From positions 62,001 through 126,000 of the forward strand of contig NZ_AUHJ01000002.1 in assembly GCF_000423125.1 (NCBI RefSeq): DNA of 64,000 bases, given 5' to 3'. Positions 1,066-35,190 of this stretch are shown piece by piece (the stretch's first letter is position 1; every line of letters begins with the position of its first letter). This stretch comes from Haliea salexigens DSM 19537 (GTDB lineage Bacteria; Pseudomonadota; Gammaproteobacteria; Pseudomonadales; Halieaceae). Both the position numbers and the translations under genes were made by a program. The notes under the pieces are model-generated. The model saw only the letters and a program-made list of their open reading frames with translations. It was not told the DNA's origin and did no database searches.

Positions 1066-2538
1066 ATGACAGATACCCAGACCAGCAAGATCGATGACCT
1101 GACAAGCCGGTTCAGGGAGCTTCACCGACTTAATCTGGGTCATTATGATTCCTATGCGAAGCTCTACTCTGACTACCTGAGAACAGGTACACGTTTTTTT
1201 GACATGCCTACCGGTATCGTTAGTCGCATCAGTGACGGGCAGTACGTCATCCTCGCCGTCGAACCCGAAACCATGAATCTCGCTTCCGGCGATGCCATGG
1301 CGCTGGGCGATACCTATTGCTCTGTGGTCGTCGACAGGGATATGACTGTGGCAGTGTCCCACGCCGGACTGGACGCCGCACTGTGCGGGCATCCGGCCTA
1401 CAGGGAGATGCAACTGGAGGCGTATCTTGCGACCCCTATCCGGGTTAACGGAGAGATCTACGGAACCTTGAATTTCTCCTCGCCCCAAGCGCGCAAATTC
1501 CCCTTTGACGAAACTGACGTCGAACTCGTTGAATTGATGGCCGGTCGGATCGGCCAGATCATCGAACAGGACCAGCTGGACCGTGAGCGACAGACTGCCA
1601 TATGCCAACTGCGTGAGAATACAGAGCTGTTCGAGAGTGCGTTCGAGCATGCTGCGATCGGCATGGCCCTGGTAAGCCTGGAAGGCCGCTGGCTGCGTGT
1701 CAACAATGCGGCTATTGAACTTCTGGGGTACAGCGAAACCGAACTGCTTACCAATGACTTCCAGACACTCACCCACCCGGATGATCTCGACAAAGATCTG
1801 GGATTGCTGCGTGAAATGCTGTCGGGGGAACGCGACACCTATCGTATGGAAAAGCGATACTTTCACAAGAACCGGCAGGAAATCTGTGCTCTGTTGAGTG
1901 TTTCCATGGTCCGCGACGAAAACGGCAAGCCGGAGTATTTTGTTTCCCAGATTCAGGACATCAGCGCCCAGAAGCGTGCCGAGGCCGAGTTACAGCAACG
2001 ACAGAAACAGCTGGAAGCGCTGAATGACCGTCTGGAGCAGCTATCCACAACGGACCCTCTGACCCAACTCAACAATCGACGCGCGCTGGAGGAGCGATTG
2101 CATGAAGAGTTGTCCCGCAGCAAGCGAACCGGGGATCCGCTATCGCTGTTGATCGTCGATGTGGACCACTTCAAACGCTATAACGATACCCATGGCCACC
2201 CGGAAGGCGATCAGGCCCTGCGCGCACTCGCCGCCGCTCTCAGTGACGTTTCGCGGACGAACGACACCGTCGCTCGACTGGGCGGGGAAGAGTTTGTGCT
2301 GCTATTACCACATACCGATGCCAGCGGGTGTTGCGCCGTGGCAAGGCGACTGGCACAGCTGGTCAGTCGCCTGGAAGGTTTGCGGGTAGCCATAACGGTG
2401 AGCACCGGCGGGGTAACGCTGGTGCCTGATATCGGGTCGATTCGCATACCCACAGCGGATGCCCTGATGAGGCGGGCAGACAAGGCATTGTACAGGGCCA
2501 AGCAAGAAGGCAGAAATCGCCATTGCCAGGCGCCTTAG
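1066..2538 (+). CDS. GAF-PAS-GGDEF diguanylate cyclase
   Basis: A soluble 490-residue protein with no membrane segment. A GAF domain spans roughly residues 20-165, a PAS/PAC unit 185-305, a short coiled linker follows (about 300-325), and a GGDEF domain ends the chain. The active-site loop reads RLGGEEF at 404-410, so the cyclase should be active in making c-di-GMP from two GTP. An RTND inhibitory (I) site lies just ahead at the usual spacing, implying product feedback. The GAF domain contains several Cys and His residues but its ligand is unknown. The gene stands alone on the plus strand; the esterase reading frame begins about 110 bp after its stop. Confidence 0.93.
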   Translation: MTDTQTSKIDDLTSRFRELHRLNLGHYDSYAKLYSDYLRTGTRFFDMPTGIVSRISDGQYVILAVEPETMNLASGDAMALGDTYCSVVVDRDMTVAVSHAGLDAALCGHPAYREMQLEAYLATPIRVNGEIYGTLNFSSPQARKFPFDETDVELVELMAGRIGQIIEQDQLDRERQTAICQLRENTELFESAFEHAAIGMALVSLEGRWLRVNNAAIELLGYSETELLTNDFQTLTHPDDLDKDLGLLREMLSGERDTYRMEKRYFHKNRQEICALLSVSMVRDENGKPEYFVSQIQDISAQKRAEAELQQRQKQLEALNDRLEQLSTTDPLTQLNNRRALEERLHEELSRSKRTGDPLSLLIVDVDHFKRYNDTHGHPEGDQALRALAAALSDVSRTNDTVARLGGEEFVLLLPHTDASGCCAVARRLAQLVSRLEGLRVAITVSTGGVTLVPDIGSIRIPTADALMRRADKALYRAKQEGRNRHCQAP

Positions 2539-8111: not shown

Positions 8112-8819
8112 GGGGCTGTCCTAGATAACTAGCCCATTTCGTTCCTAACCCATTGAGTTAACTGCTTTAATTGGCTCTTTGGGTCACTGTTATTAAATCG
8201 CCACTCACACTCCTTCAAAAACAAGGGAAAATGCTCCCGTGGCACCCCGTTGAATCGGCGTAAATGACGCTTCGCTTGATTCCAGAAATTCTCTATACCG
8301 TTTATATGATTCTGCTTATCTGCAAACAGCTCACTATGGTTAATACGGTAGTGCTTAAACTCTGAGACATCCAGAGCGTTGTAGCTACGGAATGTGTCAG
8401 TGTAAACAATGCTATCTGGCTTCACCTTTTGCCTGATAATCGGTAGTAATGTGTCGGCTTTGGCGTTGGGTATAACAACCGTGTAAACCTTGCCATGCCG
8501 CTTTAACAGGCCAAATACGGGTACTTTGCCTAACGCGCCTCGACCCCGTTTACCTTTACGCCTGCCACCAAAATAACTCTCGTCTGCTTCCACCTCACCT
8601 TCCAGTAATTCCAGATGTTCACTGTGTTCATAAATGAGTTGTCGCAGGCGATGAAAATAGTAGCTGGCTGTCGTTTTGTTAACCCCAACCAACTGGGCTG
8701 CCGTTCGTGCTGTTGTCCCCGCAACAAACAGCTCAATTAAACGTGATTGTTTGTACCAACTCAGCCTGCTCTTTCTCATCCAGCCATCCTAGATAATCTC
8801 TGTTATCTAGGACAGCCCC
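8112..8819 (-). mobile_element. IS1595-family insertion sequence, 708 bp, complete
   Basis: The element is bounded by perfect 18-bp inverted repeats, GGGGCTGTCCTAGATAAC at 8112-8129 and its complement at 8802-8819, with an 8-bp target duplication outside. It encodes a single 216-residue transposase on the minus strand. The short length and lack of an N-terminal zinc ribbon suggest the IS1016-like subgroup. It is noticeably more AT-rich than its surroundings. It has inserted into the 3' end of the hybrid sensor kinase, in the same orientation as that gene. Its right repeat supplies the new TAA stop of the truncated kinase. Confidence 0.95.
8129..8779 (-). CDS. IS1595-family transposase
   Basis: A 216-residue DDE-type transposase. 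An N-terminal helix-turn-helix (ARTAAQLVGVNKTTASYYFHRLR, residues about 24-46) should bind the ends. The catalytic region shows EADESYFGGRRKGKRGRG, VYTDTFRSYNAL and HINGIENFWNQAKRHLR, the acidic and Asn/Glu/Lys positions of the IS1595 (ISXO2-like) family. The reading frame is intact and its ends abut both inverted repeats, so the element may still be active. Larger family members carry an N-terminal zinc ribbon that this one lacks. Confidence 0.95.
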   Translation of the reverse strand: MRKSRLSWYKQSRLIELFVAGTTARTAAQLVGVNKTTASYYFHRLRQLIYEHSEHLELLEGEVEADESYFGGRRKGKRGRGALGKVPVFGLLKRHGKVYTVVIPNAKADTLLPIIRQKVKPDSIVYTDTFRSYNALDVSEFKHYRINHSELFADKQNHINGIENFWNQAKRHLRRFNGVPREHFPLFLKECEWRFNNSDPKSQLKQLTQWVRNEMG

Positions 8820-11800
8820 AAAACTTTTCCGTATAACCGGAGGTGAGAAGCACCTTGATGCCCGGCCTCTCTCGCTGCGCGATCTCGGCCAGTCGGTCAC
8901 CGCCCATGCCTCCTGGCATTACCATATCCGAGAACACCGCATTTATATCCGGGTCGTCGTTCAGCATGGCGAGAGCCTCCTCGCCGGATCTTGCACTCCG
9001 TACGCGGTAGCCCATGGATGTAATCAGATTGATTGCGTGCTCTCTGACCAGATCGTCGTCTTCAACAATCAGAATGCACTCGTCACCACTCGTTGCAATG
9101 TCGTTCTGGTCTTCAAGTGACTCCGGCAGTGTCATACTGCTTGTGGCTCGTGGTACGTATAGGGATATGGTTGTTCCTTTTCCGGGCTCTGAGTCGATGG
9201 TGATGTGACCGCCTGTCTGCTTGATGAACCCGTACACCATGCTCAGCCCCAGCCCGCTGCCCTTGCCAACGATTTTGGTGGTAAAGAAGGGCTCGAAAAC
9301 CTTGCTTATTACCTCCTCATGCATGCCTGAGCCCGTATCGGCGACGGAGATTTTCACGTAGCAACCACTCGTCACCTCCTTGTTCAGACGTGCGTATTCC
9401 TCGTCGAGCACCTCGTTGGACGTTTCGATTGTGATTCTGCCTTCCCCCTGAATGGAGTCTCTCGCGTTGACCACGAGGTTTAGCAGGGCGGACTCGAGCT
9501 GTGCGGGGTCGGCGTTAGCAAGCCAAAGGTCATCATGCGTTACGATTTCTAGCTGGATGTTCTCCTCAACGGAGCGGCGCAGGAGCATGTTCATGGAGCC
9601 GAGCATGTCTTCAACGCTTATGACCTGAGGCTCCAGAGGTTGTTTTCGAGCAAACGCGAGAAGTCTTGCAACCATCTCGCTACCACGCTCTGCCGCAGAG
9701 ACAATCATTTCCGCGAATGCGCAGGACTGATGGTCCTCCTTTTCCTGCAGGTATTCCACGAGGAGCTCAGAGTTGCCGAGTATCACCGTCAGCAGATTAT
9801 TGAAGTCATGAGCGACACCGCCAGTGAGCTGGCCAACTGCTTCAAGCTTTTGTGATTGGCGTAGATGCGCGGCGAGTTCATTTCGCTCTGTCAGGTCCGC
9901 CATGCTGATAAGTGCTCTGATTGGCTCTCCGTCCGCATTGCGAATAAGGTAGCCGCGATCAACGACTGATAGCCATTTATCGTTCGAGCCCTTGAACCGG
10001 TAGTCGCATTTCCAGCGAGTCTGTTCGTCTGAAAGGAATTCGTGGTAGCTGGACAGTACCCGATCCTTATCGTCGCAGTGAATGCGTGCTATCCATTCCG
10101 CTTCGCGAGTCAGGTCACCTGTTTTGAGTCCCATCAATTTCACGCCCTGTTCGTTCCACCAGACGATGTCCGAAACCAGATCCACGTCTCTTACAACGTC
10201 CTGGGTGGCAGAGGCCAGCATTTGAAAACGCTCTTCACTCTTTCGAAGCGTTTCTTCAGCCTCCTTACGGTCGGAGATGTCACGCTGCACAGAGACAAAG
10301 TGAGTGTAGTGTCCGGAATCGTCCGCCAGCGGCACTATGTCCATTTCAAACCACAGAGGCGATCCAGACTTCGTATAGTTAATGATCTCGCTGCGCACTG
10401 GGGAAAAATTCTCAAGTGCACGGCGAATGCGACGGAGCTCCGCGCGGTCCGATAGCTCTCCCTGCAGTATCCGTGGCGTACTTCCAAGAACTTCTTCGCG
10501 TGTATACCCGGTTATCCGTGCAAAAGCGTCGTTGACGTAAAGTATTCTTGGACCGGCCGGCGCATCGATAGGATTTGCTTCCGTAATCAGGAGAACATCA
10601 TTGATCCGCGACGTTGCTGCCTCGAGCAATCGCAGCGTTTCAATATTTGCGTGTTCCTGTGTGACGTCTCGGAAGTGTATGGCCATGCCATCGTCGATTG
10701 CGTGTGCTGAGCCGGCAATCCAAATTCCGATTGGATCCAGATATTCCTGAAAGCAGATCGGAGCATCGTTTTCTGAAGAAGCTTCCAGCTTGCGCCTTAG
10801 CCTGGATTCCTGCGAGACTGGAATAGCATCCCACAGGTGTTTGCCGACGTAGCTCTCGCTGACGTTGCCGAACAATTGTGTGAAGTCGGAATTTACGAAA
10901 GTCAGCCGATGCCCGTGATCGATGGTCAGGAAGACCGTGTCCATACCGTCTACGATCTTTCTGAGCCTGCGAGCCGCACGTACTTCTTTCTCGCTTTGCG
11001 CCTGGGAAGAAATTTGTGAAGGCGCGCCGGCATGTGTTTCAGGTGGTAGGCGCCGGGCCCATGCTTCGACCCAGGCGGGAATATGGTCGCCCTCCATCGG
11101 CTTCGCTATGTGATAGCCTTGCACGAGATTGCAGTTCAACCCGCTGACAAACTCCATTGCTTTCTGGTCTTCAACGCCTTCGGCGGTTGTCTGTAATCCG
11201 AGGTTTTTGCCAAGTTCGATAACGGATTGCACAACCATTCTCGCTTCCGCAGACCGCCCGGAAGCAATGACAAATGATTTGTCGACCTTGATTTCGGAAA
11301 AGGGCAAACGGACAAGCTGCGCCATTGAGGAGTAGCCAGTCCCGAAGTCATCCATGGAGAGAAGAAACCCCTTCATGCGCAGGCGTGTCATAAGCTCCAG
11401 CGAAGTCGTTGGGTCCTCCATGGCGCTGGTTTCGGTTAACTCAAGGATGACACGCGATGTTGAAACACCGGCTTTGGCGCAGTGCGCCGCGAGTCTGTCA
11501 GCGAAGTCTATATCGCGCAGGTTCCTGGCTGATATATTGATGGAGATTCGCACATCGCCACCGCACTGATCCCACAGTTGCTCGTGGGATTTGTACCAGG
11601 CTAGCGCGTTTGTGAAGATATAACCTGTCAGATGGTCCATCAGGTGACATTCTTCGGCGACATGAAGGAATCGGTCCGGCAGTAGTGGGCCATAGGTTGG
11701 ATGGCGCCAGCGGACGAGTGTTTCGAAACCCCTGATATTCCCGGATTTGCAGTCGATCTTGGGCTGGTAGACCAGGAAGAACTCGCGGTTGCGAATGCCG

Positions 11801-12318
11801 TCCACGATATCACGGTGTTTTATCGGTAGTCCTTGATCTACCGCTTTGCTCTCCAGCATGGCGCCCTGACTTGTTCTATTCGTTAGCAGCGCATTGAGCT
11901 GCTCCTTTCGATAGGGCTTCGTCAATTTTCCAATGATGCGCAGGCCATGTTCTTCTGCCGCAAGCGCGGCGGCATCAAGCAGGCGCTCATCGAGGCCGCT
12001 TACGAGAATGACCTTTGCCTCGCAACTCACTTCGGGGAGTCGTCGCAGCACTTCCACGCCGTCCATACCCGGCATTATCAAGTCAATGGCGACATACTCT
12101 GGACCATCACGCTCAATAGCGTGAAGGAATTCACTCGCTTGTGTAAAAACTTTCGCTGAGAGTCCAGATGCATCCGCCAGACGCGCGAGGGTCAAGGCGA
12201 CATCCCGGTCATCATCGAGTATGAAAATGTACTCGTGGGGATCACCGACATCGATCACTCGCCCGGCTTCGCAATTGTCAACCGGGTCAAAGTAATTGTG
12301 CTCATGCAAACTGTTCAT
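8803..12318 (-). CDS. Hybrid sensor REC-EAL-PAS-PAS-PAS-HisKA-HATPase-REC, 3'-truncated by IS
   Basis: 1171 residues, soluble. Order: receiver 1 (31-145, phospho-Asp79), EAL domain (about 170-415), three PAS/PAC units (about 445-810), HisKA with GGVAHDFNNLL, HATPase (NLVVNARDSI, DTGSGM, GKGSGLGLSMVYGF), receiver 2 from about 1082 (phospho-Asp about 1131). The EAL catalytic residues are present (ETL, NISARN, ELTET, MDDFGTG, VDKSF, AEGVED), so c-di-GMP hydrolysis is plausible in the same chain as a histidine kinase. The start at 12318 follows GGAG; longer in-frame options lack a domain match. The insertion sequence replaces the last ~32 residues with WGCPR, removing the switch lysine and last helix of receiver 2. 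Kinase and EAL parts are intact, but signalling through receiver 2 should fail. Confidence 0.9.
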   Translation of the reverse strand: MNSLHEHNYFDPVDNCEAGRVIDVGDPHEYIFILDDDRDVALTLARLADASGLSAKVFTQASEFLHAIERDGPEYVAIDLIMPGMDGVEVLRRLPEVSCEAKVILVSGLDERLLDAAALAAEEHGLRIIGKLTKPYRKEQLNALLTNRTSQGAMLESKAVDQGLPIKHRDIVDGIRNREFFLVYQPKIDCKSGNIRGFETLVRWRHPTYGPLLPDRFLHVAEECHLMDHLTGYIFTNALAWYKSHEQLWDQCGGDVRISINISARNLRDIDFADRLAAHCAKAGVSTSRVILELTETSAMEDPTTSLELMTRLRMKGFLLSMDDFGTGYSSMAQLVRLPFSEIKVDKSFVIASGRSAEARMVVQSVIELGKNLGLQTTAEGVEDQKAMEFVSGLNCNLVQGYHIAKPMEGDHIPAWVEAWARRLPPETHAGAPSQISSQAQSEKEVRAARRLRKIVDGMDTVFLTIDHGHRLTFVNSDFTQLFGNVSESYVGKHLWDAIPVSQESRLRRKLEASSENDAPICFQEYLDPIGIWIAGSAHAIDDGMAIHFRDVTQEHANIETLRLLEAATSRINDVLLITEANPIDAPAGPRILYVNDAFARITGYTREEVLGSTPRILQGELSDRAELRRIRRALENFSPVRSEIINYTKSGSPLWFEMDIVPLADDSGHYTHFVSVQRDISDRKEAEETLRKSEERFQMLASATQDVVRDVDLVSDIVWWNEQGVKLMGLKTGDLTREAEWIARIHCDDKDRVLSSYHEFLSDEQTRWKCDYRFKGSNDKWLSVVDRGYLIRNADGEPIRALISMADLTERNELAAHLRQSQKLEAVGQLTGGVAHDFNNLLTVILGNSELLVEYLQEKEDHQSCAFAEMIVSAAERGSEMVARLLAFARKQPLEPQVISVEDMLGSMNMLLRRSVEENIQLEIVTHDDLWLANADPAQLESALLNLVVNARDSIQGEGRITIETSNEVLDEEYARLNKEVTSGCYVKISVADTGSGMHEEVISKVFEPFFTTKIVGKGSGLGLSMVYGFIKQTGGHITIDSEPGKGTTISLYVPRATSSMTLPESLEDQNDIATSGDECILIVEDDDLVREHAINLITSMGYRVRSARSGEEALAMLNDDPDINAVFSDMVMPGGMGGDRLAEIAQRERPGIKVLLTSGYTEKFWGCPR

Positions 12319-12791
12319 TTCTCCATCACCATTTACGCAAAAGGTGCATGTTTGCGACCTCGTCCAGAGACTTCCCGCAACCGCCGTTTGCCGCTTGTGT
12401 GGGCGTTGCTGTTCATGGCGGTTGGGTTCAACGGCCCCGATCGGTACTGTGTTACCGCGCCCGGGTCGCTCCTTTGATGACCGGAGTGGTTCGGGCGGCC
12501 CTGTAAGATGCTGCACAGGTTGCGGAGAGCGACCCTGTAGCATTATTTTTGGATGAGGATCGCTCGGAGTAAGGCTCGCAACTCAGCGATGAGCAAGAAA
12601 TACAGGCACGATTGGAGCGCGCGGACGGTTGAAGGCGGCGAACCCAGTTTCTAGTAAGCCAGGTCAGGGCCCTGTTGTGGCGTCCGACGACACTCTAGTA
12701 CGTATCAGGAATACTAGTTTTTTTTGCAATCGCTCGATATCAGGGATTCCCTGAATTTCTCCGGCGCTCACCTGTCCGTCCGTAGTCGAGG
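12319..12791. promoter_or_regulatory. 473-bp intergenic region upstream of the hybrid sensor
   Basis: No convincing gene lies here. The interval should contain the promoter of the hybrid sensor, reading leftward, and the 3' end of the NarL-type regulator. Apart from the hairpin with a T run near 12695-12725, no operator or riboswitch is recognised. Confidence 0.4.
12695..12725 (+). terminator. Hairpin followed by eight T, intrinsic-terminator-like
   Basis: CTAGTA (12695-12700) pairs with TACTAG (12712-12717) and is followed by eight T on the plus strand. The stem is weak and AT-rich, and no plus-strand gene lies immediately upstream, so its role is uncertain. On the minus strand it would follow the regulator's stop by about 70 bases but lacks a U tail there. 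Confidence 0.35.
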
Positions 12792-13412
12792 TCAGCTATC
12801 GATCAAGCCCACGCGTATGCTGTGGCGAGTAAGTTCCGCGACAGAGCGTAGCTCAAGTTTGTCCATAATATGCTTTCGGTGGGATTCTATGGTTTTAGCG
12901 CTCAGATGTAGCTGCTCGGCGATCTCCCGCGTTGGGTGGCCCAGTGCAATGAGCCTCAGTACCTGCTCCTCACGCGTACTCAGTCTGGCCTGTTCGTTGC
13001 GCGCGGTGAGCTTCGACTCGAGGCGCCGGCACATGAATGTTTTTCCCGAAAAAACCGTGTGGATTGCATCTCGCAGCTCCTCAATGGCAGCTTCCTTGAG
13101 CAGATAGGCACGCGCCCCCGCGTCGAATGCCTGCCGGACGAAGTGTGTTTGTGAGTGCATGGATACAACAATAACCGCGGGTTTCGAGGATAGCCGTTGG
13201 GTTTCCTTTATGGCTGTTAACCCGTGTATCTTGGGTAACTGGAGGTCGATCACCAGGATGTCCGGGTTGGTGCGCCGGGTCTCTGTGATGGCGGATTCTC
13301 CGTTTGCGGCCTCAGCAACCACCTTGAAGCCATCAACCGAGTGTAGGTAGGCCACAATCGCACTCCGCAACATTTGATGGTCGTCGGCCACTACGATGGT
13401 AATATCTTTCAT
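12792..13412 (-). CDS. NarL/LuxR-type response regulator
   Basis: 206 residues. A receiver domain (1-120: acidic DDH, phospho-Asp in VIDLQLPKIHG, switch Ser in VVSMHS, Lys in LLKEAA) precedes a LuxR-type helix-turn-helix (about 143-200: LSTREEQVLRLIALGHPTREIA then LHLSAKTIESHRKHIMDKL). It should bind DNA after phosphorylation. Its ATG overlaps the stop of the MASE1 kinase gene by four bases (ATGA), so translation is coupled and the kinase is its natural partner. Target genes are not apparent. Confidence 0.94.
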   Translation of the reverse strand: MKDITIVVADDHQMLRSAIVAYLHSVDGFKVVAEAANGESAITETRRTNPDILVIDLQLPKIHGLTAIKETQRLSSKPAVIVVSMHSQTHFVRQAFDAGARAYLLKEAAIEELRDAIHTVFSGKTFMCRRLESKLTARNEQARLSTREEQVLRLIALGHPTREIAEQLHLSAKTIESHRKHIMDKLELRSVAELTRHSIRVGLIDS

Positions 13413-15046
13413 TCGACAGCCTCGTTGTGTAATGGCGTGTTCATCGTGACTTCCGTGCCGCCTTCAATCGGCGCACGTATCTCCAGGCGACCACCAAGAC
13501 TTTCCAGTGTATTTTCACAACTCAGTAAACCGTAGCCTCTCGCTGCTTTTCGATTGCGGAGCGAATCGATGTTGAGGCCGCGCCCGTTGTCGCGGATGGT
13601 AATGCACAAGCTGCTTCCGTTGTGTTCAACTTCCAGCTCTACTGTAGACGCTTCTGCGTGCTTGACCACGTTCACCAGAATTTCACGAGTACACCGAAAC
13701 AAGCTGGAAGCATGATCCCTGTCAAGGCTGGGCGGGGTATCACATTTGAATACCGCGTCAATCTCATACTCAGACATCAACTCCTGGAGTAGTTCCTGCA
13801 GAGAGTTCTGGAAGCTTCCACCCTGATGCACGGATGAAGCAACCCCTGACGTAATCGACCGGGTAGTTTCAATAGCCTGGTCCAGGATGTCTTTCATTTC
13901 CTCCAGCATGCCAGTGTGGGAAAGATCTTTGGTCAGTTTTGACTCAAGCAGATCCAGCTTGATCCGCGACAGAGCCAGATTCTGCCCGAGGTTATCGTGA
14001 ACCAGGCGCGCGGTTTCGGCACGAAACTCATCTTCTTTTCTGTTGGCACGAACGGCGAGCTCTCTGAGCTGTAGCCTTCCACGTTCAATCTCTTTCAGGC
14101 GTGAGCTTCTGTCGTCAGTGCTGGCGCCAAGAATCAGGCTTGCAGCGGTATTGACCAGAAGATAGAGGCAAAGCCCGGCGGCGAACTCCTGCGAGGATAC
14201 AGCAGAAAAATACACGGTTTCATTCAACGCGCCTACACTGGCAAAAGTCGCTACGACGACGTTGCAAACCGCTGCAAAAACGGAGCCGAACCTTGCGGCC
14301 GCCCAGAACAGGCCCGGCGTAACAAGGTAGATGCTCGCCGGATGTGTTGTGATCTCGAATACAAACACGGCGGCGGATATACCGATTATGAATACGGCGA
14401 GAGCGAACGCTTCGACATATCGCCGGGGTGGCGCGATCCGACCTGAAAAGAAAAGCCAGGCCGACACGACAGCGGGAGTGACGATAATTATGCCGGAGGC
14501 TTGTACTAATGCCCATTGCGCGAAATCTACCGGGAAATCTGCTGTTGTATTTGCTGTGCGCATCAAGGCCGGCGCAACCGCGAAAACGGTTGGCAGCAGA
14601 AGGCCTGCGACAAGTACAAAATATGTCGCGCGCCTGAGGGCTGTTTGTGTATGCGAACAATAGTGCCTCAGTAGTGCCGCACCAACGAGCCCCTCGAGCG
14701 TTTTTGACGCGGCAATAACCAGCGCCATCGAAAGTGGCGACGCGTAGACGATGAATTCCACTCCCAGCTGAACGCAGAAAATGGCCGGAACGAGCACCCA
14801 CCACTCGCGTTTCGAGGCGAGTAGCAGTCCTGCCCAGTAAACACCCGCTGCGAGATACATGAACGGGAGGTCGTTTCGCAGGGAGTATATGCCAAGAACG
14901 ATCGCTGCCAATATGGCATAGCCAGCTGCGGTTAACGCCACAAAATGCCAGCGGATTTTTTCCTGTGCGGATTCGTCAGGAAGCCAGTCGAGGACGCAGG
15001 GAAATTCCTGCTGGTCGACGAAAGCTTCGGGTATCACTCTTGCCAT
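13409..15046 (-). CDS. MASE1-domain histidine kinase (HisKA_3 type)
   Basis: 545 residues. Residues about 35-310 form eight or so membrane segments of the MASE1 sensor type, beginning after a short cytoplasmic lead. After a linker helix comes a NarX-like dimerisation domain with the phosphorylated His in ETARLVHDNLGQNLALSRIKLDLL. A C-terminal ATPase domain follows (REILVNVVKHAEAS, IRDNGRGL, RGYGLLSCEN). The start has GGAGG seven bases upstream. MASE1 domains sense unknown signals in or at the membrane. It is translationally coupled to the NarL-type regulator downstream and lies 86 bp after the diguanylate cyclase gene on the same strand, so all may be one transcript. Confidence 0.93.
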   Translation of the reverse strand: MARVIPEAFVDQQEFPCVLDWLPDESAQEKIRWHFVALTAAGYAILAAIVLGIYSLRNDLPFMYLAAGVYWAGLLLASKREWWVLVPAIFCVQLGVEFIVYASPLSMALVIAASKTLEGLVGAALLRHYCSHTQTALRRATYFVLVAGLLLPTVFAVAPALMRTANTTADFPVDFAQWALVQASGIIIVTPAVVSAWLFFSGRIAPPRRYVEAFALAVFIIGISAAVFVFEITTHPASIYLVTPGLFWAAARFGSVFAAVCNVVVATFASVGALNETVYFSAVSSQEFAAGLCLYLLVNTAASLILGASTDDRSSRLKEIERGRLQLRELAVRANRKEDEFRAETARLVHDNLGQNLALSRIKLDLLESKLTKDLSHTGMLEEMKDILDQAIETTRSITSGVASSVHQGGSFQNSLQELLQELMSEYEIDAVFKCDTPPSLDRDHASSLFRCTREILVNVVKHAEASTVELEVEHNGSSLCITIRDNGRGLNIDSLRNRKAARGYGLLSCENTLESLGGRLEIRAPIEGGTEVTMNTPLHNEAVE

Positions 15047-15132: not shown

Positions 15133-16152
15133 TCAGCTACCTTCAGGTTCACTGTTGTTTTGCGCGCTGCTCTTGCTATCGGTACAGCTTGCGACACGAT
15201 TTTTGCCGTCTTTTTTTGCCTGATACAGCGCCTTGTCTGCGAGGCCCAAAAGCTCTGCTTCAGTAACGTCCGTATCAGCTTGCGCCGTACCTGCGCTACA
15301 GGTTACGTGCAGCGTCTCGCCGGACGCCAACGTGAACTGGTGTTCGCGCAGCGCGGTGATGAAGCGATCGACGGCGAGAAGTCCCTGGGTTTCATCACAC
15401 TCAGGCATGACAATGATGAACTCCTCGCCACCGAAGCGCCCTATGGTATCGGAGTCGCGGCTCAAAGTGTTCAACAGGGCGCCCACTCCGCGCAATACAT
15501 CGTCGCCTGCCAAGTGGCCGTGGGTATCATTGACAACCTTGAAATCATCAATATCAATCATGGCAACCGTCAAGGGTATATCATAGCGTTCCGCGCGCTT
15601 TAGCTCCTCGCGCAGCGTATCGAGTGCATAGCTGCGACGGAATGTGCCGGTCAAAGGGTCTGCGACCGCGAGTGCTTCCAGCTGCGCGGTACGCTCTTTT
15701 ACTTTCTCCTCCAGCCTGATATTCGCTTCAAGAATATCTTCACGCGCTACACGCAGTTCTTCATTGGCCGCGACGAGGCGGGCACGGCTGGGAATGTTGA
15801 TTGCAATGGGCAGCAAACGCCAGGCTACGATAGCGGTGATGGCCGACACCACGCCAGTCGATATCTTTGCCAGGCCCTCGATAAAGTAGTACCCATGCCA
15901 GACATTGATTAGTGAGATCAGGTGCGTTACGCCGCAGAGGAAGATGAAGGCAGCAAACATGAGGAAGACGCGGTCAAAAGTGAGATCTTCACGTTTTCTC
16001 ACCAGCCTGATCAGTACTGCGGGAATGGCGAAATAGGCAAGCGTGGTGAGTGTGTCGCCACCCACGTGAAGAAACAGCAGATCCCACCGCCAAAGCAGAC
16101 AATGGCCGTGGGGCATCAGGCTGCCGTCAAGCACGCGTTGCAGCAATTCCAT
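15133..16152 (-). CDS. Diguanylate cyclase with ETR1-like ethylene-binding membrane domain
   Basis: 339 residues. The first 120 hold three membrane helices matching the ethylene-binding domain of plant ETR1: GGDTLTTLAYFAIP, AAFIFLCGVTHLISL and a third helix at GLAKISTGVVSAITAIVAW. Asp33, Tyr40, Ile43, Pro44, Ile70, Cys73 and His77 correspond to ETR1 Asp25, Tyr32, Ile35, Pro36, Ile62, Cys65 and His69, each offset by exactly eight. Cys and His are copper(I) ligands in ETR1. A coiled coil (about 125-160) links to a GGDEF domain with RFGGEEF and an RDSD inhibitory site, so it should make c-di-GMP. The start at 16152 (GGGAG upstream) removes a 58-residue basic lead. A 72-residue frame ends four bases upstream. 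Ethylene or copper binding is inferred from residues only. Confidence 0.92.
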   Translation of the reverse strand: MELLQRVLDGSLMPHGHCLLWRWDLLFLHVGGDTLTTLAYFAIPAVLIRLVRKREDLTFDRVFLMFAAFIFLCGVTHLISLINVWHGYYFIEGLAKISTGVVSAITAIVAWRLLPIAINIPSRARLVAANEELRVAREDILEANIRLEEKVKERTAQLEALAVADPLTGTFRRSYALDTLREELKRAERYDIPLTVAMIDIDDFKVVNDTHGHLAGDDVLRGVGALLNTLSRDSDTIGRFGGEEFIIVMPECDETQGLLAVDRFITALREHQFTLASGETLHVTCSAGTAQADTDVTEAELLGLADKALYQAKKDGKNRVASCTDSKSSAQNNSEPEGS

Positions 16153-28294: not shown

Positions 28295-29338
28295 ATGTCA
28301 GTGACACCGAACACCCATCAAGCATTCCAGTCGCTACCGGTCGTGAACATCGCGGGCTTGAGCTCTGCCAGCGTAAACAGCCGCATGCGAGCAGCACAGG
28401 AACTCGGAAATGCCGCGCGCGCTGCCGGCTTTCTGTACATAACGGGCCACGGAATCGCTCCTGAGATCATTCAGCGTTTCCGCCAGCGCGCGGCCGAGTT
28501 CTTCGCCCAGAGCCAGGCCGTCAAGATGGCGAGTTATATCGGACATTCCCGCAATCACAGCGGCTATGTACCTGAGGGTGAAGAACAGCTCTATGGCACC
28601 GCGTTGCCAGATCGCAAGGAAGCCTACGATCTGAACTACGATATGCTCGAACCCGCTCATGAGCGCCCGATGCTGGGACCAAACCAGTGGCCAGATATGC
28701 CCGGTTTCAAGCCTGACGTGCAGGCTTATTACAACGCGGCCTTTGCACTGGGAAAGCGCCTTTTTCGCGGGTTTGCTTTGGCTCTTGGGCTGCCGGAAGA
28801 CCGCTTTACCCGCCTCGTCACGAGGCCACCTACACAACTGCGCCTCATTCATTATCCCCATGATCCATGCCCGGACGCTGCAGCGGCCGGCATCGGCGCC
28901 CATACAGACTACGAGTGTTTCACGATTCTGTTGCCGACGGCGCCGGGTCTGGAAGTCATGAACGGCGCGGGGCAATGGATCGACGTGCCGCTGCGTGAGA
29001 ATGCATTCGTCATCAACATAGGCGATATGTTGGAAATACTCAGCAATGGCGAGTTGATCGCCACTGCACACCGGGTGCGGAAGGTGGCTGAAGAGCGCTA
29101 TGCGTTCCCGATGTTCTGCAACGTCGATTACGACGTGGAGATCAGGCCCCTGCCGGAGCTGTTGCATGCAGGAAGTCCTCCGCGCTACGCGCCGCAAATT
29201 TGCGGTGAACACCTGTTTGCACAAACTGCACAGACCTTCGCCTACTTGAAGCGGCGTCTCGAGACCGGCGAGCTTGTGCTGCCCAAAGGCAGCCTCGGCC
29301 TGTCCAGCTTTGGTCCCAAAGTGCGAGCGCAGCCATGA
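28295..29338 (+). CDS. Isopenicillin-N-synthase-family Fe(II) oxygenase
   Basis: 347 residues. An N-terminal DIOX_N region (about 14-130) and a 2-oxoglutarate/Fe(II) oxygenase core (about 178-290). The iron ligands are His203 and Asp205 in GAHTDYECFT and His259 in ATAHRV; Arg268 in ERYAF takes the position that binds the co-substrate carboxylate (RxS-like, here RYA). The tail YAPQICGEHLFAQTAQTFAYLKRRL is shared with many bacterial relatives. Such enzymes hydroxylate, desaturate or cyclise small molecules. The substrate is unknown. It is the first gene of a cassette: its TGA overlaps the next ATG by four bases. Confidence 0.9.
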   Translation: MSVTPNTHQAFQSLPVVNIAGLSSASVNSRMRAAQELGNAARAAGFLYITGHGIAPEIIQRFRQRAAEFFAQSQAVKMASYIGHSRNHSGYVPEGEEQLYGTALPDRKEAYDLNYDMLEPAHERPMLGPNQWPDMPGFKPDVQAYYNAAFALGKRLFRGFALALGLPEDRFTRLVTRPPTQLRLIHYPHDPCPDAAAAGIGAHTDYECFTILLPTAPGLEVMNGAGQWIDVPLRENAFVINIGDMLEILSNGELIATAHRVRKVAEERYAFPMFCNVDYDVEIRPLPELLHAGSPPRYAPQICGEHLFAQTAQTFAYLKRRLETGELVLPKGSLGLSSFGPKVRAQP

Positions 29339-33903: not shown

Positions 33904-35190
33904 CTAGCGATTCCCGGAGAGGATTTCACGCCCCTTAAGCCAGACCCTGAGCTCTGCCTCTGGCATCGGGCGTGCATATAAATACCCCTGCACAATATCG
34001 CAGCCGAGCGCACGCAGCATCTCCAGTGTCGCTTCGTCTTCCACGCCTTCCGCAACCACATCGAGGCCGAAGAGGTGACCAATATCAATAATGATCCTGA
34101 CCAGGTTCTGATCCTGGGTGTCTTCCAGCAGGCGTATAACAAAAGAGCGGTCAATCTTGATTTCGGTCGCCGGAATCTCCTTGAAATACGATAGCGATGA
34201 AAAGCCGGTGCCGAAGTCGTCAATCGACAGCCCGAGGCCGAGCTCCCGCAGCTGTGCGAGGTTATCGAACCCTGCTTCCTTGTCCTCGATCACGGCGCCC
34301 TCGGTGATTTCCACCGTGATCGTGGCAGGATCCGCCCCCCAGATGGCGAGTGCACTCTGCATCATGTTAGGCAGGTCGGGGTTGCTGACCAGGTCCGCGG
34401 ACAGGTTGATGGCCAGTGGTAGCGAAAAATCATCCCGCCACTCACGTTGGTAACGCAGGGCGCGGTTCACCACCCAGCGGGTCAGTTCGTAGCTGCGCCC
34501 GGACGCATAGGCCAGCGCGACCAGTTCCTCCGGCGGCACGAAACCGTGGTCGGGAAGCTGCCAGCGGATCAGTGCCTCGGCGCCGAAGACCTTGCCGCTG
34601 CGCAGGTCTATCTTGGGCTGGAAATACAATTCAAAGGCGTTGTCGTAGAGAGCCTCTGCAAAGCGTTGCTCCAGGGGCATGCTTGTCTGGTTTGCGATGG
34701 GCTCCTGAATCGCTTCGTCAATTTGCAGCAACTTGCCCTGACGTGTCTGTACCAGGCTGCTTTCGGCACGCGCCAGCATGGCGAGCGCACCTTGTGCTGT
34801 CGCTCGGGTAACTGCGAGACCCAGGCGCAATTCGACCGGCAGGATGTCGTCGTCGATATTGAGCGACTCCTCAAGCGTGCGCTGCACACGGTTGACCGCC
34901 AGGGCGATAAAGGCCGGGTTTGCGAGTCGGGGCAGCAGGAAGGCGTACGTCTTGTTGGATATCCGGTAGACGTTGTCGGGCAGTTTGCTGAGGTCCTGCA
35001 ACTGTGTGTAGGCCTCCAGCAGGAGGTGGTCGCCGATGGCATAGCCGTGGCGGTGGTTGATAACGCGCAGGTTGCTCAGGTCCACGAGCAGCAGCCCGGC
35101 GTGTTCCCCGTGCTCACCGGACAGCGCAATCGCCGCGTCCAGTGCGGCGATGAACAGGTGCCTCTCAACGACCGGTGGCGTAGATGTCAC
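33904..35190 (-). CDS. EAL phosphodiesterase with degenerate GGDEF domain
   Basis: 428 residues, no membrane segment. The N-terminal 160 residues keep the GGDEF fold ([25 protein letters not shown]) but the active loop reads [10 protein letters not shown] in place of GGDEF, so no cyclase activity is expected. The EAL domain (about 175-420) keeps its catalytic set: [44 protein letters not shown] and VAEGVED. It should hydrolyse c-di-GMP. The assumed start is a GTG ten bases after the HD-GYP stop, so both genes form an operon. Confidence 0.92.

Follow-up and report, generated by a model that had tools for sequence, protein, structure and literature searches.

An ETR1-type ethylene-binding domain homologue fused to a diguanylate cyclase with intact motifs in Haliea salexigens and other marine gammaproteobacteria

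Introduction

Ethylene-binding domains are known from bacteria, and at least two receptors that carry them, AzoEtr1 and SynEtr1, have been reported to bind ethylene (PMC11819568, PMC5812497). AzoEtr1 of Azospirillum brasilense consists of an ethylene-binding domain, a PAS domain and a histidine kinase, which acts with a response regulator as its output. AzoEtr1 was reported to bind 14C-ethylene and to change biofilm formation, the D35A and C75A variants failed to rescue biofilm formation, and the residues D35, C75, H79 and K98 correspond to D25, C65, H69 and K91 of the plant receptor ETR1 (PMC11819568). UirS/SynEtr1 (Slr1212) of Synechocystis likewise has a bacterial three-helix ethylene-binding domain, which is part of a large photoreceptor kinase, and this protein was reported to bind ethylene directly and to affect motility (PMC5812497). 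In ETR1 itself, C65 and H69 were described as the copper site, I35, P36 and I62 are among the residues essential for binding, and the affinity for copper is femtomolar (PMC6586836). The plant receptor was also described as being switched off by ethylene (PMC7700396). In the case of GeiEtr2, a cyclase gene was described as a neighbour only (PMC6682694).

The window, by which we mean the whole stretch of 64,000 nucleotides of Haliea salexigens DSM 19537 that was analysed (G000:C2:62001-126000), encodes a protein, P0001, in which a homologue of this sensor is joined straight to a diguanylate cyclase domain rather than to a histidine kinase that is served by a response regulator as in AzoEtr1. Membrane-anchored GGDEF cyclases, for example those with a MASE domain, combine an integral membrane sensor, a helical linker and a GGDEF domain with an I-site; P0001 differs from them in its sensor, which belongs to the ETR1_N family of ethylene-binding domains. 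We know of no ethylene-sensor-cyclase fusion that has been tested. Within a limited coverage of the literature, which included PMC11819568, PMC7700396, PMC6682694, PMC4686702 and PMC5812497, no description of an ethylene-binding domain fused directly to a cyclase was found, and such a fusion may already be listed in a survey.

Results and Discussion

The sensor-cyclase gene occupies positions 15133..16152 of the minus strand, stop codon included, and encodes 339 amino acids from an ATG at 16152. An earlier note on this DNA had reported the open reading frame with its strand unstated; the frame is real and is read from 16152 down to 15133. A GGGAG stretch that resembles a ribosome-binding site lies upstream of the ATG, and the start methionine is found at the same place in the relatives L101, L102 and L002, the last of which, from a Halieaceae bacterium, was the best similarity-search match (80%). 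The sensor domain (15796..16080, minus strand, residues 25-119) matched the Pfam family ETR1_N (PF25487) with an E-value of 3.4e-32 and 111 bits, the cut-off being 27. In the genome-wide profile search it scored 114 bits and was the single occurrence in the genome. The GGDEF domain (15196..15669, minus strand, residues 162-319) matched PF00990 with an E-value of 1.1e-38 and 133 bits. Pfam matches up to an E-value of 1 included no domain besides these two, and hence no histidine kinase output. The domain assignment is secure. The cyclase had been described as an apparently active one with a GGEEF motif and an I-site, and both motifs are indeed intact: the codons from RDSD (the RxxD of the I-site, residues 232-235) through GGEEF (residues 241-245), with five residues between them, span 15418..15459 on the minus strand. 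Cyclase activity is predicted from the sequence.

The seven residues that the note had likened to the ethylene and copper site of ETR1, i.e., D33, Y40, I43, P44, I70, C73 and H77, are at the positions it gave and align with ETR1 D25, Y32, I35, P36, I62, C65 and H69, of which we take Y32 to be the counterpart of Y40. The stretch from Asp33 to His77 aligns without a gap to ETR1 Asp25-His69, so that the offset of eight is constant, and K96 additionally matches ETR1 K91. The stretch from Cys73 to His77, whose two end residues correspond to the Cu(I) ligands Cys65 and His69 of ETR1, is encoded at 15922..15936 on the minus strand. With an ETR1 sequence that was entered by hand rather than taken from a database, the identity over residues 25-119 was 35%, and the Smith-Waterman score was 138 compared with a mean of 29.7, a standard deviation of 5.0 and a maximum of 50 in 500 shuffles. 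Because the Pfam ETR1_N match is independent of that ETR1 sequence, a chance likeness to ETR1 is excluded. The plant receptor has, unlike P0001, a GAF domain and a kinase-receiver output as well as N-terminal disulfide cysteines. AzoEtr1, with which we identified the A. brasilense Sp7 protein L136 because of its 525 residues and its D35, C75, H79 and K98, shares the sensor and all seven residues with P0001 and is 42% identical to it over residues 25-119; its D35 and C75 correspond to D33 and C73 of P0001. The sequence thus supports a true homologue of the ETR1_N ethylene-binding domains, complete in its binding-site residues, whose fusion partner is a diguanylate cyclase that appears to be intact.

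The three helices that had been proposed for the N-terminal domain were recovered as hydropathic stretches within residues 25-53, 55-88 and 90-122 (19-residue windows above 1.2). An AlphaFold2 model placed the sensor helices at residues 23-53, 60-82 and 89-119 with moderate confidence (block pLDDT 49-81), followed by a helical linker of about residues 123-163 between the sensor and the GGDEF domain. The model was confident in the enzyme half (block pLDDT 88-96 for residues 171-320) and poor in the first 20 residues, at the N-terminus of the sensor (pLDDT 41-48), with residues 4-21 and 83-88 being undefined (pLDDT <50). In this metal-free monomer model, with its sensor pLDDT of 49-81, Cys73 and His77 are in the predicted helix 2, approximately level with Asp33 and Tyr40 by helix register. 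The positive-inside rule, applied to the RLVRKRED turn after helix 1 and the GGDEF domain, suggests that the N-terminus is outside, and Cys73 and His77 would then lie towards the outer side of the membrane at the level of Asp33. A phmmer search (E up to 10) found no solved structure for the first 120 residues. One GGDEF relative of P0001 was detected in the viral contigs, and the viral structure library yielded eight matches to the model at E-values up to 0.001, which were GGDEF or cyclase proteins where they were named and unnamed gene products otherwise.

ETR1_N matches above the Pfam cut-off were found in 12 of the 369 genomes of a class sample, in 28/398 of a phylum sample and in nine of 97 relatives, these three samples overlapping. 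Conservation was counted over 54 aligned bacterial domains. This count leaves out L103 (identical to L002 in this region), L001 (the window itself, already represented by P0001) and L007 (truncated at a contig end), as well as L132, which scored 35.8 bits and hence over the Pfam cut-off but was missed by the phmmer step, and the below-cut-off rows L093-L096, L106, L107 and L133. Two ETR1_N matches of the phylum sample had no locus, L092 was counted here but is absent from the sensor tree described below, and several of the long reading frames are cut at the sequence end. The individual residues were retained in 49 (D33), 49 (Y40), 47 (I43), 43 (P44), 48 (I70), 51 (C73) and 51 (H77) rows, and all seven were present in 36 of the 54. 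A complete residue set is therefore, judging by the alignment, the rule in the ETR1_N family, and the output is the less usual part of P0001; since so many bacterial domains have it, the complete set alone is no proof that ethylene is the signal. HisKA was matched in 30 rows and GGDEF in 12, the latter being a biased frequency because nine rows (L002-L006, L036, L136-L138) were recruited by using P0001, or the first 120 residues of it, as the query. Nine of the 12 GGDEF-matching proteins are short like P0001 and three (L083, L086, L100) are longer. The ETR1_N proteins L090, L091, L105, L129 and L130 were observed to lack the cysteine, the histidine or both, and it is possible that they are sensors of the same fold for something other than ethylene.

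Ahead of helix 1, P0001 carries Pro14-His15-Gly16-His17-Cys18 (codons at 16099..16113, minus strand), which is part of a bacterial PHGxCxxW motif. Across the 54 rows, P14 was kept in 51, H15 in 50, G16 in 53, C18 in 50 and W21 in 51, a conservation that is close to that of the copper ligands. The PHGxC part is shared with AzoEtr1, and the PHG part is missing from ETR1. Both the H15/C18 and the C73/H77 pairs were kept in 47 rows and both were broken in three, while only the site was broken in two and only the motif in another two. This joint breakage (Fisher p 0.004) is uncorrected for kinship and comes from few, divergent rows. In plants, copper is delivered by RAN1, a pump of the endoplasmic reticulum. 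It is conceivable from the alignment, but unlikely, that the motif is a periplasmic site for loading or capping copper that was lost in plants.

The nine minimal sensor-GGDEF proteins formed a single clade in the sensor tree, with a bootstrap of 100, which was not fully settled, and an SH-aLRT of 99. They belong to the Halieaceae (P0001, L101, L102 and L103 of the same genus, and L104 of another genus) and to the Alteromonadaceae (L003-L006, from Alteromonas and Catenovulum), L103 being represented in the tree by the identical row L002. Within the genus, the gene was found in four of eight genomes. All nine proteins, P0001 included, have the seven binding residues and a GGEEF motif with an RxxD at I-site spacing. 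Compared with the four full-length Alteromonadaceae proteins, P0001 is 59-62% identical in the sensor and 35-38% in the GGDEF domain. The GGDEF tree required three changes for ten minimal proteins, L007 included, and did not reject a single clade (p-AU 0.488); because of this value, a swapping of GGDEF partners is not claimed. The plain reading of these sequences is that a single fusion event was followed by spread among marine gammaproteobacteria, and that the sensor is more constrained than the enzyme.

As to what such a protein might do, the reading that we favour, and consider rather probable on the basis of the sequence, is that ethylene controls c-di-GMP through P0001, which would be a receptor with a second-messenger output in one protein. 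The three-helix membrane domain would dimerise and hold Cu(I) at Cys73 and His77, the latter being positioned by Asp33; the binding of ethylene, or of some other very small alkene, to the copper would shift the helices; the signal would then run through helix 3 and the linker helix to the paired GGDEF domains and alter the synthesis of c-di-GMP, which may in turn inhibit its own production at the I-site. We infer each of these properties, i.e., the copper, the binding of ethylene, the cyclase activity and their coupling, from the sequence. Whether c-di-GMP would rise or fall can be guessed by analogy: as ethylene turns the plant receptor off, a fall would be our guess. The genome encodes further c-di-GMP parts: GGDEF was matched 24 times, including twice within a single 619-aa frame, and PilZ four times. 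In the window itself, two other GGDEF matches were noted at 2047-2520 (plus strand, in a 493-aa frame) and 34738-35166 (minus strand, in a 437-aa frame). An ORF of 1246 aa at 8803-12543 (minus strand) contains a receiver, an EAL domain, a PAS domain, a histidine kinase and a second receiver stretch at its C-terminus, which looks shortened by eye; its EAL domain makes it a possible c-di-GMP phosphodiesterase near the cyclase.

Among the alternatives, the one that fares best, while still being improbable, is that the same fold and residues serve another small ligand, such as propylene, other alkenes, carbon monoxide or a redox signal, or that the domain is mainly a membrane anchor and dimeriser. 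Specificity is unreadable from a sequence, which favours this possibility. Ethylene is among the short hydrocarbons that arise in sunlit seawater. Some Halieaceae have been reported to grow on ethylene or propylene (PMC4036023, PMC6440738), and non-methane hydrocarbons to arise in surface seawater via the photochemistry of dissolved organic matter (PMC6440738), so that alkenes other than ethylene may be considered as ligands. The examination of the copper membrane monooxygenase PF02461 and the soluble diiron monooxygenase PF02332 did not reveal an alkene-degradation pathway in the genome. PF02461 had no match there; it was present in four of the 97 relatives, none of which is among the nine carriers of an over-cut-off ETR1_N domain. 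The genome has one PF02332 cluster (L151, on G000:C30), with a sigma-54 regulator. In its order, sizes and gene set this cluster resembles a phenol hydroxylase; the regulator is MobR-like (693 bits, under the model's own cut-off of 999), and no NCBIfam model matched the alpha or the beta subunit. The host's catabolism of ethylene was tentatively rejected as a context for the sensor, as PF02461 is missing and the sole soluble diiron cluster, whose substrate range a sequence does not disclose, is phenol-hydroxylase-like.

Partly at odds with this rejection, the same kind of cluster was commoner in carriers of the sensor. Over-cut-off PF02332 matches were found in four of the nine carriers, as against 11 of the 88 relatives without the sensor (Fisher p 0.03, uncorrected for kinship), and, within the genus, in three of the four genomes with the cyclase and in none of the four without it. 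In G369, the cyclase gene shares its contig with a homologous cluster (L147:1-6149) that is approximately 6 kb away and has an alpha subunit of 70% identity and an XylR_N/V4R regulator; in the genome of the window and in G375, cluster and cyclase gene sit on separate contigs. This weak association and the proximity in L147 make an aromatic or co-oxidised ligand thinkable; until shown otherwise, we take the association as the result of kinship and chance. Against a role as an anchor only are the seven residues and the sensor identity of 59-62% next to an enzyme identity of 35-38%, neither of which is expected for a mere anchor.

A side observation concerns a 2-oxoglutarate/Fe(II) oxygenase of the isopenicillin-N-synthase type at 28295-29338 (plus strand), next to a urea-type ABC binding protein. 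Its best solved relative is 9ovh (179 bits), which is named as an ethylene- and succinate-forming enzyme. Other structures of the same name matched it weakly (9eir with 64 bits, and 5v2t with 52 bits over residues 84-212), and, because of these weak other matches and the urea-type transporter neighbour, it is an unconvincing candidate for an ethylene-forming enzyme. If ethylene is the signal, its source is probably environmental.

It appears quite unlikely that P0001 is a periplasm-facing sensor of copper (or silver), in which the metal at Cys73/His77, perhaps together with the PHGxC residues, would be the signal and ethylene irrelevant. Cys73 and His77, the metal ligands, rank with the best-conserved positions of the domain, at 51/54 each, with H15 and C18 following at 50/54 each, and of the five rows that have a broken Cys/His pair, three have a broken H15/C18 pair too (Fisher p 0.004, uncorrected for kinship); furthermore, no ethylene gene was found nearby. 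Against such a sensor, Y40, I43, P44 and I70, which are needed for ethylene binding and are unnamed as metal ligands, are likewise kept in all nine minimal proteins. None of the five window genes that were scanned is copper-handling. Moreover, the femtomolar affinity that was reported for ETR1 (PMC6586836) would fit copper as a fixed cofactor better than copper as a quantity to be sensed.

The gene following the cyclase on the same strand, after a gap of 86 nt, encodes a MASE1 histidine kinase (13409..15046, minus strand; Pfam MASE1 E 5.9e-13, HisKA_3, HATPase_c), and a NarL-type response regulator (12792..13412, minus strand; Response_reg and GerE) overlaps the kinase gene by 4 nt. The earlier note had pointed to this arrangement, which we confirmed, and had extended it to a possible olefin- or metal-responsive switch made up of all three genes, an extension that the comparison of loci did not bear out. 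Because of the common strand, the short gap and the overlap, a shared transcript is possible in this strain. Within the genus, two of the four genomes with the cyclase have the MASE1 kinase, as against none of the four without the cyclase, and in the second kinase-bearing genome it is on the contig and strand of the cyclase. There, in the nearest relative (G375:C6), the kinase is approximately 17 kb off (239271 versus 222099) and 63% identical, compared with 91% for the cyclase. The other two cyclase carriers of the genus are without the kinase, and the kinase-regulator pair adjoins the cyclase in none of the eight other loci. One reservation comes from another genus: in L148 (5407-9154), the sensor-cyclase gene is followed on the same strand by a DUF3313 gene and then by a different pair, a PocR-PAS kinase and a NarL-type regulator. 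This kinase is 30% identical in its catalytic part and the regulator 36%, but the sensors of the kinase are PocR and PAS, and MASE1 was not matched in it. By themselves, the kinase and regulator of the window are an ordinary two-component pair. With no adjacency in eight loci and a distant, less similar kinase in the nearest relative, the larger switch is very improbable, and a conserved operon with the pair was likewise rejected, with L148 as the reservation.

No gene family beside the cyclase was common to both bacterial families in the eight other loci. On its divergent side, P0001 is neighboured by a DUF3089 protein, and the window and L145 share this gene and three genes beyond it. L146 and L147 have the same genes directly on either side of the cyclase, one being alcohol-dehydrogenase-like and the other DUF6544, and they also have a short-chain dehydrogenase and an HDOD gene in common. 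In L006, a regulator of the NarL-type family lies approximately 2.8 kb from the cyclase.

Conclusions

AzoEtr1 and SynEtr1 signal through kinases, and the sensor-cyclase, if the favoured reading is true, would be a very simple reporter of ethylene. It would be one gene with a measurable product and with natural point-mutant controls at Cys73, His77 and Asp33, and the way in which the binding of ethylene leads to an output, an old question, could be addressed in a small, single-chain enzyme. Somewhat more tentatively, with a confidence that falls a little short of balanced, we propose that P0001 and its relatives are a family of minimal ethylene-to-c-di-GMP converters of free-living marine bacteria, which would work within one protein and dispense with a phosphorelay. 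If this is true, the biology of ethylene would extend to free-living marine bacteria far from plants.
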